This document shows positions 18,152-50,754 of a stretch of 64,000 bases of DNA, in pieces. The translations under genes were made by a program, and so were the position numbers. The notes beneath the pieces are model-generated. The model had not been told where the DNA came from. It saw nothing but the letters and a program-made list of their open reading frames with translations, and made no database searches. The stretch is from contig NZ_CP094656.1 of NCBI RefSeq assembly GCF_030643805.1, forward strand, positions 248,001 to 312,000, given 5' to 3'. Numbering within the stretch: position 1 is the first letter of the stretch; every line of letters starts with the position of its first letter. This DNA comes from Alkalihalobacillus sp. AL-G (GTDB lineage: Bacteria; Bacillota; Bacilli; Bacillales; Fictibacillaceae).

Positions 18152-18320
18152 AGATTTTTAAGAATTCGAAAAAGAAAAACTTTTATTAAACAAAAAAAAC
18201 CCCCAAAGGTGCGTGAACATCTTTGGAGGAATACGACAAAGCTTGTTTCCCGAGAAGGGATTCGGCTGAGAATAGTAGACCGCGACCTAAAGTGTGCAGC
18301 TCAAGGGCGGTCTATTTTCT
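18152..18320 (+). ncRNA. Candidate antisense antitoxin RNA of a type I toxin-antitoxin locus
   Basis: Rightward promoter ATGACA (18117-18122), 17 bp, TATAAT (18140-18145) gives a start near 18152. A hairpin TAGACCGC (18276-18283) / GCGGTCTA (18307-18314) followed by TTTTCT ends it at about 18320. The predicted RNA of about 170 nt is antisense to the 3' part of the convergent toxin mRNA over about 130 nt, the arrangement of BsrG/SR4 and TxpA/RatA in B. subtilis. No ORF with a ribosome binding site is seen in it. Confidence 0.6.
18192..18229 (-). terminator. Terminator of the leftward toxin mRNA
   Basis: Read leftward: CCTCCAAAG, 12-nt loop, CTTTGGGGG, then eight T. A 9-bp stem with one wobble pair. 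Confidence 0.85.
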
Positions 18321-18395
18321 ATAAGGAAATGACAACACGCCGATTATCAACGTCGCAAACGAGATGGCAACCATCAACGTTTGATATACTGTCAT
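18312..18395 (-). CDS. Type I toxin, small hydrophobic holin-like peptide
   Basis: A 27-residue peptide starting MTVYQTLMVAISFATLI, one membrane helix followed by a short basic end (SFPYRK). AAAGGGGTGG lies about 7 nt before the ATG, a very strong ribosome binding site. It resembles the short holin-like toxins of Bacillaceae in both N-terminus and size. The convergent antisense RNA and a long 3' UTR with its own terminator (18192-18229) support a type I toxin-antitoxin module. The 5' leader contains CTCGAGGGCGGTC (18426-18438), which can pair with GACCGCCCTTGAG at the stop codon (18300-18312). Such toxins insert into the membrane when freed from antitoxin control. Confidence 0.65.
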   Translation of the reverse strand: MTVYQTLMVAISFATLIIGVLSFPYRK

Positions 18396-18636
18396 TGTTA
18401 CACCACCCCTTTCGAGTGTAGTGCCGACCGCCCTCGAGAGCCGAAGCTTATCGTATTTATACAATTTTATCATTAATGGAAAAAATTCTCATGATACAAT
18501 GGGACCAGTTATTGCAAGTCCTAATCTCCTACGAATATTACAAAAATGTATGTATCCTTTGGTTATTTATGCCAAAAGGATTACTTTAATACACTAATGA
18601 AACGTAGTAACTTACCGATTAAATGGAGGTAATAAA

Positions 18637-39554: not shown

Positions 39555-39810
39555 ATTACAGATTCGGTTGATGATGAGGAGAGTAAGTGCTTGTGTACCT
39601 TCTAGCGAACTGGAGTTGGTGGAAGTCCAGTAGGTCCAAGCACTGAACCGCACCTCGGAGAAGCTTTTTTGAAGAAATGAAGTAGGAAAAGCCGTTACCC
39701 CGCGTTAAGGGGGTAAAGAAGGGAACTATTTTACTGTTGGTGATAGTTCCAAGCAGAGTGGTACCGCGGGAATACTCGTCTCTCATTTTTTGAGAGGCGT
39801 TTTTTTATTG
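39555..39810 (+). promoter_or_regulatory. T-box riboswitch (arginine) controlling argS
   Basis: Stem I with AGTA bulge (GAGAGTAAG near 39581), a specifier region TGAAC-CGC-A with the Arg codon CGC at 39649-39651, the T-box sequence AGAGTGGTACCGCGGG at about 39755-39770, and a terminator GTCTCTC/GAGAGGC followed by T7 at 39779-39807. Uncharged tRNA-Arg should stabilise the antiterminator and allow argS transcription. A -10-like TATAAT is at 39542-39547. Confidence 0.93.
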
Positions 39811-46891: not shown

Positions 46892-47940
46892 TGGCGAGAT
46901 ACAGATCAATAAGGAACAAAGCATTTTCATTGCTATTTGATACAAAAACGACATGGATCGTTCTTAGTTTAGCAGTAGGATTTATCGCGTTGATGATACT
47001 AAGCATCGGGGTTGGTCAGCTCTGGATTTCACCTATAGATGTTGTAAAATCCATGTTCGGCTACGGAGAAGATATGCAAAACCTGGTCGTCCGATCGTTT
47101 AGAATGCCTCGTATAATATTAGCTTTATTGGCTGGAGCAGGACTTGCATTATCAGGCGCGATCCTACAAGGGATTATCAGGAACCCATTAGCATCACCAG
47201 ACATTATCGGGATAACTGGAGGAGCTGCTGTTGCGACAGTTGGTTTCCTTGCTGCTTTTAGTGATCGAAGTAATTCATTGACTGTCAGTATTCATTGGAT
47301 GCCGCTCGCCTCCTTTCTTGGCGCGGTCATTATGGGTTTTCTTGTTTACTTATTGGCGTGGCGTCAGGGGGTTTCACCGATCCGACTTGTGTTGATCGGG
47401 ATTGGATTATCTGCAGCAGCACAAGCGTTCACGACAATGATGATGATCCTCGGTCCGATTTTTACAGCATCTAAAGCAAACATTTGGATTACCGGAAGTG
47501 TTAACGGTACAAACTGGAGCGAAATCACTACATTACTGCCGTGGATGGGTATACTTTTTATTGCCGTTTTCATCATGGCAAGGAGACTGAATATCCAAGA
47601 GCTTGGGGCAGATGTTGCGACGGGAGCCGGGAGTAAGGTACAGAAGGATCGAATGCTGCTTTTATTTTTAAGTACTGCACTAGCCGGTGGATCGGTTGCA
47701 TTCGCAGGAGGTATCGGATTTGTCGGATTAATGGCACCTCATATTGCCAGGAAGCTAGTAGGCTCTTCTTTTGGGGGATTGCTCATGGTGTCGGCTCTGA
47801 TTGGTGGAATAGTTGTAATGGGAGCGGACTTAATCGCGAGAACAGCATTTGCACCACTTGAAGTGCCAGCAGGGGTATTTACATCAGCAATCGGAGCACC
47901 ATACTTCATCTACCTACTTTATAGGAATAGGAATAAGTAA
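46891..47940 (+). CDS. Siderophore ABC transporter permease (FecCD family), second subunit
   Basis: A 349-residue partner permease. SFRMPRIILALLAGAGLALSGAILQGIIRNPLASPDIIG and AFAGGIGFVGLMAPHIARKLVG are the family signatures. It overlaps the preceding gene by 1 bp and ends at a strong terminator (47964-47996). B. subtilis YfhA is the positional counterpart. Forms the heterodimeric channel with the first subunit. Confidence 0.9.
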   Translation: MARYRSIRNKAFSLLFDTKTTWIVLSLAVGFIALMILSIGVGQLWISPIDVVKSMFGYGEDMQNLVVRSFRMPRIILALLAGAGLALSGAILQGIIRNPLASPDIIGITGGAAVATVGFLAAFSDRSNSLTVSIHWMPLASFLGAVIMGFLVYLLAWRQGVSPIRLVLIGIGLSAAAQAFTTMMMILGPIFTASKANIWITGSVNGTNWSEITTLLPWMGILFIAVFIMARRLNIQELGADVATGAGSKVQKDRMLLLFLSTALAGGSVAFAGGIGFVGLMAPHIARKLVGSSFGGLLMVSALIGGIVVMGADLIARTAFAPLEVPAGVFTSAIGAPYFIYLLYRNRNK

Positions 47941-47963
47941 GTGGAAATTGAAAATTAGGTATT

Positions 47964-47996
47964 AAAAAAAGGAAGGCGATTAGCCTTCCTTTTTTA
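47964..47996 (+). terminator. Terminator of the siderophore permease operon
   Basis: GGAAGGC, loop GATTA, GCCTTCC followed by TTTTTTA; the stem is extended by A/T pairs. Confidence 0.92.
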
Positions 47997-48061
47997 TTTT
48001 AGACATTAGTGGTGGAACTTCATCTAGTAAAAAACAACGTTCATTCATCTGTATCATAGAC

Positions 48062-48427
48062 TCACCCTATATACCTTTCAAATTGAAGATCAGGTGTGTC
48101 GTCGTGTACTAAAAGGGAAGAGCTCCCAAACGAAAGATCAGGTGTATCATCGTGTGCTAAAAGGGAAGAGCTCCCAAACGAAAGATCAGGTGTATCATCG
48201 TGTGCTAAAAGGGAAGAGCTCCCAAACGAAAGATCAGGCGTATCATCGTGGGCTAATAGGTAAGAACCCCCGAACGAAAGGTCAGGTGTATCGTCATGGG
48301 CTAGAAAGGAAGAGCTTTCAAACGAAAGATCAGGTGTATCATCATGTGCTGAGTAATAATTGTTAGGTAAAGCAGTAAACACCATTAAGCAAAATAAACC
48401 GATTAGTATAATTAAAACTTTTTTCAT
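48062..48427 (-). CDS. Exported multi-copy peptide precursor, candidate quorum-sensing pheromone
   Basis: A 121-residue precursor from ATG 48427, which has GAGGAG eight bases upstream. Residues 1-25 form a signal peptide (MKKVLIILIGLFCLMVFTAL). From residue 27 to the end are six 16-residue units starting at about 27, 43, 59, 75, 91 and 107, with core HDDTPDL and consensus AHDDTPDLSFGSSSLL. The last unit differs (VHDDTPDLQFERYIG). Three units are almost identical at DNA level (48 bp). Coming 24 bp after an HTH-TPR regulator on the same strand, it fits the receptor-precursor layout of NprR-NprX and AimR-AimP. Release of short peptides from each unit is inference. Confidence 0.78.
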   Translation of the reverse strand: MKKVLIILIGLFCLMVFTALPNNYYSAHDDTPDLSFESSSFLAHDDTPDLSFGGSYLLAHDDTPDLSFGSSSLLAHDDTPDLSFGSSSLLAHDDTPDLSFGSSSLLVHDDTPDLQFERYIG

Positions 48428-48451
48428 AACGTTCACTCCTCAAATAACTTA

Positions 48452-49708
48452 TTAAAAGAATTTTTGACTAGCTTTAAGTGCTAATTTATAATTCTCACTA
48501 GCATTTTTGTACTGTGAGTTTTTATAGTAGTAATCAGCTAAAAGGGTTGAATATTCACAAACATATTCCATAATATTTTTATCTTCGAAAAATGGAATTG
48601 CTTGTTTTTTTAGCAGATTTTCATATTCTTTACCAGATTGTTGATTAAGTCTCAACTTTAGAATCTTATAATGAATAGTGTACTCATCGTTCGGTTCTTT
48701 TTCTAATTGAATATTTATTTTTTGCATCCATTTATTGGACTCTTCGTAATTTTCTAGATTGTAGTATTCTTTGGCAATGAGAAAATATGTAACTTGTAAG
48801 TTAGAATCCTTAACCTTATTTTTGATCTCCAGACTTTTCAAATAATATTTTATTGCTTCTTCGGGGTCACCTTTATTAGAATAAACAAATCCTAAATTGT
48901 GATAAATTATTCCTAAACTTTTTGAGTTATTAAATGAAATTGCAAACTTTAACGCCTGGTTAAAATGATACTCTGACTGTAAATAGTTCTTTATTCGTCT
49001 GTTCACTATTCCAAGTAATATTTGACAATCCGCACTTCTAGTAAAATTGTATTCTTTATCAAAGATATCTAGCGCTTTGTATGCATAATTTATTACTGCG
49101 GTATTGTGAAAGAGATGAGTCTGAGTTAATGCTACGCTGTAATAGTATGTTGCTAACTCAACTTGATTTAATGGAGTGTGCTGAATATAAGCCTCAGCAT
49201 TCTCAAAGTGTTTTATTGCTTGTGAGTAATTGGATTCAACATGATTAAATAATCCATTTATAAAGTGATAATAGAAATTAAGAGCAACATCAGAACGTGT
49301 CTCATAATACTTATTTAATTCCAAAATTTGTTTTGAGGCTTTTGTTTTATTATTTGTTGTAATAAAATACCTAGTTAAAAATAATTGATATCTTATTAAA
49401 GTATTGGGATCTTCAATAAGTGGTATATACTCTTTAATTTTATTATGTGTGGTTTCGGCTTCCTCATATTTACGGAGAACCATCAGATAATTCCACTCAT
49501 TAAGCATTCCTACTAAATTAACATCGAGCTGTTTTTCTTCGGGGGATATCCCAAGGCGTTCACACAACAATTCAATGACATCTTCACTAGATTTGGCGTC
49601 GCCGTTTTCAATTTTACTAAGGTAGGAGACGGAGCATATGCCCTTCGCAAGTTCCTCTTGGGTGAGGTTTTTTGTCTTTCTGTAATATCTTATTCGCTGT
49701 CCAATCAT
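48452..49708 (-). CDS. HTH-TPR transcriptional regulator, RRNPP (NprR/PlcR/AimR-like) type
   Basis: A 418-residue protein. An N-terminal XRE-type helix-turn-helix (about 1-58) contains QRIRYYRKTKNLTQEELAKG and YLSKIENGDAKSSEDVIELL. The remaining 350 residues are helical tetratricopeptide-like repeats (for example NFYYHFINGLFNHVESNYSQAIKHFENA and IIYHNLGFVYSNKGDPEEAIKYYLKSLE). Size and order match NprR (about 420) more than PlcR. The gene is markedly AT-rich. The downstream repeated-peptide gene suggests the TPR domain senses the re-imported peptide. An inverted repeat at 49728-49788, 20 bp before the start, suggests autoregulation. Confidence 0.88.
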   Translation of the reverse strand: MIGQRIRYYRKTKNLTQEELAKGICSVSYLSKIENGDAKSSEDVIELLCERLGISPEEKQLDVNLVGMLNEWNYLMVLRKYEEAETTHNKIKEYIPLIEDPNTLIRYQLFLTRYFITTNNKTKASKQILELNKYYETRSDVALNFYYHFINGLFNHVESNYSQAIKHFENAEAYIQHTPLNQVELATYYYSVALTQTHLFHNTAVINYAYKALDIFDKEYNFTRSADCQILLGIVNRRIKNYLQSEYHFNQALKFAISFNNSKSLGIIYHNLGFVYSNKGDPEEAIKYYLKSLEIKNKVKDSNLQVTYFLIAKEYYNLENYEESNKWMQKINIQLEKEPNDEYTIHYKILKLRLNQQSGKEYENLLKKQAIPFFEDKNIMEYVCEYSTLLADYYYKNSQYKNASENYKLALKASQKFF

Positions 49709-49727
49709 AATATCCCCCCTTTGTAAC

Positions 49728-49788
49728 TTGGGAAAATTGACCCGTAAACCCCTTGAATAATGTCTACCAAAACTACTAGTTTTCCCAA
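49728..49788. promoter_or_regulatory. Long-spaced inverted repeat upstream of the HTH-TPR regulator, candidate operator
   Basis: TTGGGAAA (49728-49735) and TTTCCCAA (49781-49788), 45 bp apart (centres 53 bp). The same arms with 44-bp separation lie upstream of the matrixin gene at 5356-5415. The region between this regulator and the divergent gene at 49948 is 239 bp and AT-rich. Confidence 0.6.
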
Positions 49789-49947
49789 TACAAGGTTGTA
49801 CGTTCCTTTGCTAAAATAAATATAACATAAATTGAACAGCTAGTTAGGGTTATTTGCTTGTTTTTTCAGTTATTTTGGAAAATTTTCATAATAACTATAG
49901 TAAGAATGTGCCTATTTTAATTATGACATGAAAGGGAGGACAGCATA

Positions 49948-50754
49948 ATGGGAAAAATGAACAATTTATTTTATAATAGAGATAATCCCAAAGGCCCAGT
50001 TTATACTTCCGATGAACTAGCACAGTCCAACCGGATGAAATATAATAATATGAATGAGGGTGAAAAGTCCTATAAATCTAGTAAGGATCTTCATATCGAT
50101 GATCAACAGAATAAATGGTATTATTATCGGATTGACGAAAAAGGGAAGTTCGATCTCGTAGGATTTAATCCCCATTCAGGATCTGTAATGAAAAAAGTAG
50201 TTTACGGTACTCCGAATATTTATGAGTTTCCTGAACACATTATCGTAGCTTGTGAGGGGAACGGGGAAACAGGTGCCGTCTATCAGTTTTCAAAGGATAC
50301 GTTGATGCTTGTTCAAGAGTGGGAAATTGATGGTTTTATCTGGGATGTGAAGATGGTCGATCACGATGTTTGTGTTTCTGCTTATGTCGTTGACTTGGAT
50401 ACAGCGCGTCTCTATATTTTAAAAGGTCGTTCAATCGATTTTGTTGAACTTGGAACCCATTTCGCACCTGCAGATTTATTGGTGTTCCAAGGCAATCTCT
50501 TTATTTCGGCGTATCCTATAGTTGAGACAAGCCCTAGAAAGATTTTGCGGTTAGATGATGAATTTGCGATTGTTGATGAATACAAGGTATCGGTTTGCCC
50601 AAGATTTCTTTTTGAAAATGGCGATGAAATCTTAATTCAGGAACTGGACGTAAAGACAGGGCGATCTGATCGCTATTCTTCTCTCAACATCAAAACAGGA
50701 GAAGAGATCATTTCAAGAAGGAAACGACCAAAAAGAACTAAAAGTCTAATATAA
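49948..50754 (+). CDS. Hypothetical protein, possibly beta-propeller-like
   Basis: A 268-residue soluble protein I do not recognise. The N-terminal 50 residues are polar and Asn-rich (NNLFYNRDNPKGPVY), then repeating strand-turn patterns occur (WYYYRIDEKGKFDLVGFNPHSG, FPEHIIVACEGNGETGAVYQF, FQGNLFISAYPI, RKILRLDDEFAIVDEYKV) resembling six-bladed or seven-bladed propeller blades. No signal peptide. ATG 49948 follows GAAAGGGAGGACAGC. It diverges from the HTH-TPR regulator and shares its intergenic region, so it may be a target of that regulator. The C-terminus is strongly basic. Confidence 0.6.
   Translation: MGKMNNLFYNRDNPKGPVYTSDELAQSNRMKYNNMNEGEKSYKSSKDLHIDDQQNKWYYYRIDEKGKFDLVGFNPHSGSVMKKVVYGTPNIYEFPEHIIVACEGNGETGAVYQFSKDTLMLVQEWEIDGFIWDVKMVDHDVCVSAYVVDLDTARLYILKGRSIDFVELGTHFAPADLLVFQGNLFISAYPIVETSPRKILRLDDEFAIVDEYKVSVCPRFLFENGDEILIQELDVKTGRSDRYSSLNIKTGEEIISRRKRPKRTKSLI

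Follow-up and report, generated by a model that had tools for sequence, protein, structure and literature searches.

The locus at positions 48062 to 49788 of the window, by which we mean the whole 64,000-nucleotide stretch of Alkalihalobacillus sp. AL-G that was analysed, is very probably a chromosomal quorum-sensing pair of the NprR type with a six-copy pheromone, for which we propose a mechanism of peptide processing, peptide anchoring and operator binding by a receptor tetramer. A quorum-sensing pair with a six-copy precursor had been proposed in the initial annotation, and it is well supported by homology and fold, by selection on the core of the peptide and by the conserved linkage of the precursor. 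We read the pair as an NprR-type circuit for extracellular scavenging. A single odd repeat has become a testable family-wide circuit: its peptides follow a pattern, one residue is a candidate for specificity, and the operator points from sequence alone to candidate targets.

The helix-turn-helix (HTH) and TPR protein of 418 residues and the precursor 24 bp further on, both described at the outset, were confirmed as open reading frames, the former with its Pfam domains (HTH_3, E 5e-14; TPR_12, E 7e-19). The precursor frame (48062-48436, minus strand) encodes 124 amino acids from a GTG and 121 from the ATG at 48427; the ATG gives an MKK signal peptide and the 24-bp gap downstream of the receptor gene. 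Export is predicted, as judged by hydropathy and the KK only, and the constant 16-residue period of the six units bears out the earlier description of a secreted precursor of 121 residues with the core HDDTPDL. The right end first chosen for the locus, 49788, is the end of an inverted repeat that forms a conserved operator-like site. A search of the genome for a second copy gave one other match, with 2 mismatches, which is the control level (3 control hits), and the next match in a search for a second copy of the protein reached only E 0.5. The divergent gene across the operator has relatives across three other receptor operators of the source genus (L198, L199 and L204) and is possibly co-regulated with the receptor.

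Table 1. Features of the receptor-precursor locus (positions in the window)
Feature	Position	Strand	Basis
NprR/Rap-type receptor, 418 aa: XRE HTH (residues ~6-58), TPR peptide-binding domain (~62-418)	48452..49708	-	Pfam, homology and fold comparison
Exported pheromone precursor, 121 aa, six copies	48062..48427	-	Sequence, repeat analysis
Signal peptide and pro-region before first core (MKK...YYSA)	48347..48427	-	Predicted from sequence
Core copy 1, HDDTPDL	48326..48346	-	Repeat analysis
Core copy 2, HDDTPDL	48278..48298	-	Repeat analysis
Core copy 3, HDDTPDL	48230..48250	-	Repeat analysis
Core copy 4, HDDTPDL	48182..48202	-	Repeat analysis
Core copy 5, HDDTPDL	48134..48154	-	Repeat analysis
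Core copy 6, HDDTPDL	48086..48106	-	Repeat analysis
Bipartite operator-like site TTGGGAAAA-N43-TTTTCCCAA, 61 bp, 19 bp upstream of receptor start	49728..49788	.	Conservation and pattern scans
Divergent gene, 268 aa, without Pfam match, across operator from receptor	49948..50754	+	Pfam, neighbour clustering

Each unit of the precursor consists of HDDTPDL and a linker of nine residues, the last copy being HDDTPDLQFERYIG. The six cores are the same in the protein and come in five DNA versions, with five of the seven codons varying, always synonymously; selection must therefore keep the core peptide, and the repeat pattern reflects selection on the peptide, beyond chance or merely fresh duplication. 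The linkers are also alike within this precursor, as they might be if, in place of HDDTPDL, the linker (SFGSSSLLA) or the entire 16-mer were the active signal, but their amino acids differ between copies at five of the nine positions, and between species they diverge in length and sequence while x-[D/E]-x-x-P persists. In addition, Metabacillus has contiguous SEPDHPKIV units without a linker, and in one genome (G003) the precursor ends at its last core, IDDRPEL. We regard a linker or 16-mer signal as very improbable. Because the G003 protein ends at IDDRPEL, its sequence suggests that the signal is of seven residues. HDDTPDL had not been recognised as a described signal, and in a literature text search neither this string nor two shorter ones were found.

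Across species the core is kept as x-[D/E]-x-x-P-x-x and most other positions of the unit, including the linkers, diverge. Cores of the source genus are IDQTPEP, IDDRPEL, YDENPPM, FDENPPM, IDELPPM, YDDNPPM and YDENPPA, while those of Fictibacillus include HDDSPKI, HDDNPRA, FDELPKT, VDNGPNP, TENNPGI and SDNNPGI, among others. A table of 124 units from 24 species was anchored on [D/E]xxP, so these two columns are conserved by construction; the Ala directly before the core, in a column outside the anchor, has a weighted count of 17.7 of 24. An unanchored test used one exact unit from each of 23 species and left out a single-copy precursor (L073) and two that do not fit the pattern (L079 and L083). 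D-x-x-P was present in 21 of the 23, Ala and Pro stood five apart in 21 and Ala and Asp two apart in 20, against 13 for the best pair in 1000 shuffles.

The receptor is present at E<=1e-60 in 33 of 34 Fictibacillaceae genomes and in all eight of the source genus, where its seven relatives share 53-66% identity with it; in the 34th genome (G017) a receptor follows its operator but runs off the contig after 157 codons. It had been suggested at the start that genomes be searched for HTH-TPR genes with a repeat-bearing exported neighbour, that repeat number be compared among strains, and that the lack of a linked precursor in every relative would speak against a pair. We read 30 of the 33 family loci for precursors: by script count 27 carry 3-9 copies and three a single copy, giving a range from 1 to 9, and each of the 30 has a candidate precursor next to the receptor. 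Two of the three single-copy precursors (L061/L079 and L053/L083) do not fit the core pattern. This natural series of 1 to 9 copies makes the purpose of multi-copy bacterial pheromone precursors directly testable. Outside the receptor clade, 43 of 58 named receptors are without a repeat, 12 score 2-6 and three are without a candidate precursor; one of the 12 (L111) was a chance match on inspection, which leaves 11. In this sample, for which the best 80 of 364 relatives supplied the named loci, the multi-copy precursor is the rule in the Fictibacillaceae and sporadic elsewhere. The locus titled Pseudalkalibacillus caeni (L084) lies outside the clade, and neither an operator site nor a precursor was found there. 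The record titles of L064, L100, L090 and L092 look inconsistent with the receptor tree: 'Rossellomorea aquimaris EaN35-1' falls in the Pseudalkalibacillus clade, with another R. aquimaris record elsewhere in the tree, and a receptor recorded under 'Peribacillus frigoritolerans' hardly differs from one of Metabacillus idriensis.

Secreted repeat proteins are common, and this one has no family above cut-off in Pfam and none in NCBIfam, so that it might be thought a secreted structural or antimicrobial protein that merely lies beside an HTH-TPR regulator. The constant presence of a candidate precursor in the family loci argues against this, as do the short single-unit precursors of the same kind that adjoin the receptor in other genera and the fold of the receptor, which in a structure comparison of the predicted model is closest to peptide-bound Rap proteins and to NprR; we give a structural or antimicrobial role hardly any credence and retain the pheromone precursor. 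An origin in a phage or plasmid was considered and rejected: relatives in plasmid and phage records are all below 60% identity (at most 33% and 30% among the rows listed), and five viral-contig matches cover just 40-54 residues of the HTH end. The pair looks chromosomal.

Several features place the receptor among the RRNPP(A) regulators and, within them, with NprR. Its TPR domain is homologous to those of Rap and NprR, its 418 residues fall within the range of 250-500, and the directly adjacent propeptide gene is predicted to encode an exported product. The groove Asn of RapJ (N225) corresponds by alignment to N271, Asn in 80 of 81 receptors, at a position where Asn is also common in TPR repeats. 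An N-terminal XRE HTH joined to a Rap-like TPR domain is the arrangement of the NprR subfamily, and the HTH_3 domain sets the protein apart from Rap phosphatases, which have no DNA-binding HTH; in the predicted model the HTH part is mostly below pLDDT 50. The precursor, at 121 residues, exceeds the 10-100 of RRNPP_detector (PMC10075063) and is too long for the strict search of that program because of its repeats; another paper gives propeptides of 50-120 residues (PMC11343458). The tetramer-interface residues Y223 and F225 of NprR are matched by Y220 (Tyr in 26 of 26 receptors) and F/Y222 (aromatic in 26 of 26), and the dimer residue Y410 aligns with Y407, kept in 25 of 26 (for the roles of these residues, PMC4970707). 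Residue 222 is aromatic in just 25 of the 58 receptors outside the clade and non-aromatic in 33.

The residues with which NprR contacts its own peptide, NprX, are not kept in an alignment of 26 receptors: R126 and D309 are lost, W167 is Tyr in 21, H201 is kept in three and N306 in 13, and R343 and Y165 are likewise not kept. Such loss is expected for another peptide but lends no support to the pairing. Among the Spo0F-binding residues of NprR (D107, Y118, E188 and Y223), those corresponding to D100 and Y220 are kept, Y118 is replaced by L111 and E188 by Q182. In the tree, the NprR of the B. cereus group (4gpk) falls outside the clade of 23 receptors, on a long branch with weak support.

A contact of another kind is suggested by position 238. 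In the RapJ-PhrC complex, receptor residue D192 forms a salt bridge with Arg2 of the peptide and N225 holds its backbone (PMC3601965). By sequence alignment, residue 238 of our receptor matches Asp in Rap105, RapI and the pLS20 Rap and Glu in NprR, and the match is completed by equal spacing to the conserved Asn, 33 residues from R238 to N271 as from D192 to N225 in RapJ. All 23 clade receptors have Arg here; the 58 others have Arg (45), Lys (11) or Glu (2), so that 79 of 81 are basic at this position. Because this position is acidic in Rap and NprR and Arg or Lys in these receptors, while the pheromone cores are acidic before the Pro, the comparison suggests that Arg238 is a charge-inverted peptide anchor. 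Among 28 receptors and paralogues of the source genus, 21 have a recognised precursor, and these sort into three classes in which residue and peptide correspond: Arg238 with acidic-Pro peptides (eight orthologues), Asp238 with Arg/Lys-containing precursors (seven Rap paralogues, L037 among them) and Leu238 with HDGIIK-type precursors (six Rap paralogues). The classes follow clades and so represent few independent changes. A recognised precursor was absent for the other seven of the 28 (Arg in three, Lys in one and Tyr in three at 238). Nine of the 13 Rap-like paralogues with Asp238 or Leu238 (L022-L025, L027, L028, L033, L036 and L037) have multi-copy precursors too, with up to nine HDGIIK units, so copy expansion has affected three receptor classes.

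Across about 310 bp that span and precede the receptor start, mean column identity in the source genus is 88%, and this stretch contains TTGGGAAAA and TTTTCCCAA. The genome of the window has four such spaced pairs, all of exactly 61 bp though 31 spans were allowed, and the reversed control gave none. All 34 family genomes have 2-7 pairs, 147 in total, with no reversed pair in any of the 34. Of 62 distinct sites read with their surroundings, 61 span 61 bp and one 62; one 60-bp site is listed in G029. The 500 bp upstream of the 80 named receptors hold 25 exact pairs of span 61 and two of span 60, and none was found at the other 49 spans from 40 to 90. A scan of the genome for the single half-site TTGGGAAAANTNK returned 19 sites against 14 reversed, so only the spaced pair is specific, and a promoter-like scan returned 12 matches with 9.2 expected. 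As a structured RNA the conserved region was rejected: RNAalifold gave a covariation term of +0.38 with two-sided change in three of 57 pairs, and Rfam gave one sub-threshold match in 47900-50000 (24 bits, cut-off 48). We prefer a DNA site.

From its position and co-distribution only, we infer that the receptor reads this operator. In each of the 22 named clade loci, one of them carrying a single mismatch in the site, 18-20 bp separate the end of the site from the start of the receptor, and the same holds for two loci of the Sporolactobacillaceae. Among 299 genomes of the order, a receptor (E<=1e-40) is present in 32 of the 36 with the operator and in 89 of the 263 without an exact pair (Fisher p 2e-10). 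These 89, out of 121 receptor genomes in all, and the four operator genomes without a receptor would sit well with a different regulator that reads the operator and also controls the receptor gene, the quorum-sensing pair being real. Against a different regulator stand the fixed position of the site and its association with the receptor, which holds beyond the family as well (21 of 25 operator genomes against 89 of 263, p 1e-6); moreover, in G062, one of the four exceptions, the spans are 58 and 71 bp and not 60-61. A receptor was found in five of the ten genomes of the order with the reversed pattern. Not every homologue shares the site: ahead of the Geobacillus and Sutcliffiella receptors even the closest pairs carry 4-6 mismatches. 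We consider control by another regulator unlikely, if much less so than the two alternatives above, and continue with the receptor as the putative reader.

The genes that point outward from the 62 sites, with one count for each site and with names from the Pfam match of one representative per cluster, are candidate targets of the circuit. The clusters comprise receptors (18, three of them the pair's own and 15 of Rap size), DJ-1/PfpI (12), secreted S8 subtilisin (9), PhoX phosphatase (8), a gene of 51 residues (6), SDR (5), FdhD (5) and smaller groups. Three of the four sites in the genome of the window precede the receptor, a subtilisin gene (223 bp) and a Rap-like gene whose precursor has four copies (57 bp); the fourth is further from its gene, an SDR (477 bp). 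A thermolysin-like protease gene starts about 1.7 kb from the subtilisin's site. Activation would fit the distance from site to gene, which is 56-91 bp for 14 of the 15 genes of Rap size, 134-223 bp for subtilisin and 232-244 bp for PhoX. A conserved gene of 50-51 residues lies 58-60 bp from the site in six loci (L212, L217, L220, L238, L243 and L247), opposite PhoX in five. In L242 (G017:C4:28400-33500) the site, at 2576, lies 215 bp ahead of a gene for an AimR-family arbitrium receptor (PF22871, E 1e-38), which hints at a mobile element that may eavesdrop on its host's circuit.

Secretion, extracellular cutting, re-import and binding form the described RRNPP route (PMC11343458). Here the precursor would be exported by Sec, and its peptides would be cut near HDDTPDL, on the N-terminal side after Ala, with the linkers trimmed by extracellular proteases; we speculate that the operator-linked subtilisin cuts the precursor. 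The peptide would be re-imported by an oligopeptide permease, for which the genome offers 16 SBP_bac_5 matches as possible importers, two of them in one frame, and would then be bound in the TPR groove, with its acidic residues predicted to lie against Arg238. Once bound, the peptide would probably stabilise a receptor tetramer that clasps the two half-sites, whose centres are 52 bp, or about five turns of DNA, apart. The result is probably activation at targets such as the secreted subtilisin and Rap-Phr genes; at the receptor's own promoter feedback repression is as likely, and a site 19 bp before the start codon suits it. A wider joint reading is possible, and we put it forward tentatively. 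The Fictibacillaceae would possess a charge-inverted branch of NprR in which an acidic x-D-x-x-P-x-x pheromone is held by Arg238, orthogonal to the Asp-anchored Rap-Phr systems of the same cells; the peptide-bound tetramer would act on the rigid 61-bp operator to switch on the peptide-freeing subtilisin, so that maturation feeds itself, with a relay to Rap-Phr and also, in a single genome, to an arbitrium receptor of the AimR type.

Among the nearest described systems is NprR-NprX of the Bacillus cereus group, in which the peptide SSKPDIVG is gripped through its Lys; our system differs in its acidic peptide and the receptor Arg at the aligned anchor, in its six copies, in the loss of the Spo0F contact Y118 and in a tree that, on weak support, does not join the two. 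With NprX bound, NprR forms a tetramer, for which simultaneous contact with two DNA sites has been proposed; this suits the long-spaced 61-bp site. A literature search found no published NprR box for comparison in the accessible texts. Duplicated Phr peptides (Phr3T and Phr105), two phage cases worked out in detail, likewise place tandem pheromones in one propeptide, the copies being freed by extracellular proteases, and the Phr105 spacer LKLA resembles the LLA that ends our linker (PMC11343458); those receptors are Rap proteins without an HTH, with an Asp anchor and Arg in Phr, and have two copies where ours has six. Duplications are known in some nprX genes (PMC5199041), and multi-copy RRNPPA propeptides have been reported with up to six copies, against nine in this family, with repeats in 17 of 17 large NprR propeptides (mBio 2022, PMC9765709); no peptide pattern, charge inversion or operator like ours was found in the accessible text of that paper. 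AimR of the SPbeta phages is a TPR receptor on a long-spaced inverted repeat, with two 6-bp arms and a 25-bp spacer (PMC9232636) compared with 9-bp arms and a 43-bp spacer here, and AimP inhibits DNA binding by AimR whereas NprX enables NprR. Multi-copy precursors are thus already published, and what is new here is Arg/Lys238 with an acidic peptide and the 61-bp bipartite site. The peptide pattern, charge inversion and operator were not met in the main texts of the literature searched, and among the matches listed for the half-site string none was about such an operator.

Two further elements were seen elsewhere in the window. A BsrG-type RNA above the Rfam cut-off (86 bits against 55) lies at 18203-18455 on the minus strand, with a short hydrophobic open reading frame at 18312-18473, and looks like a type I toxin-antitoxin locus; a T-box leader (131 bits, Rfam) lies at 39562-39786 on the plus strand.
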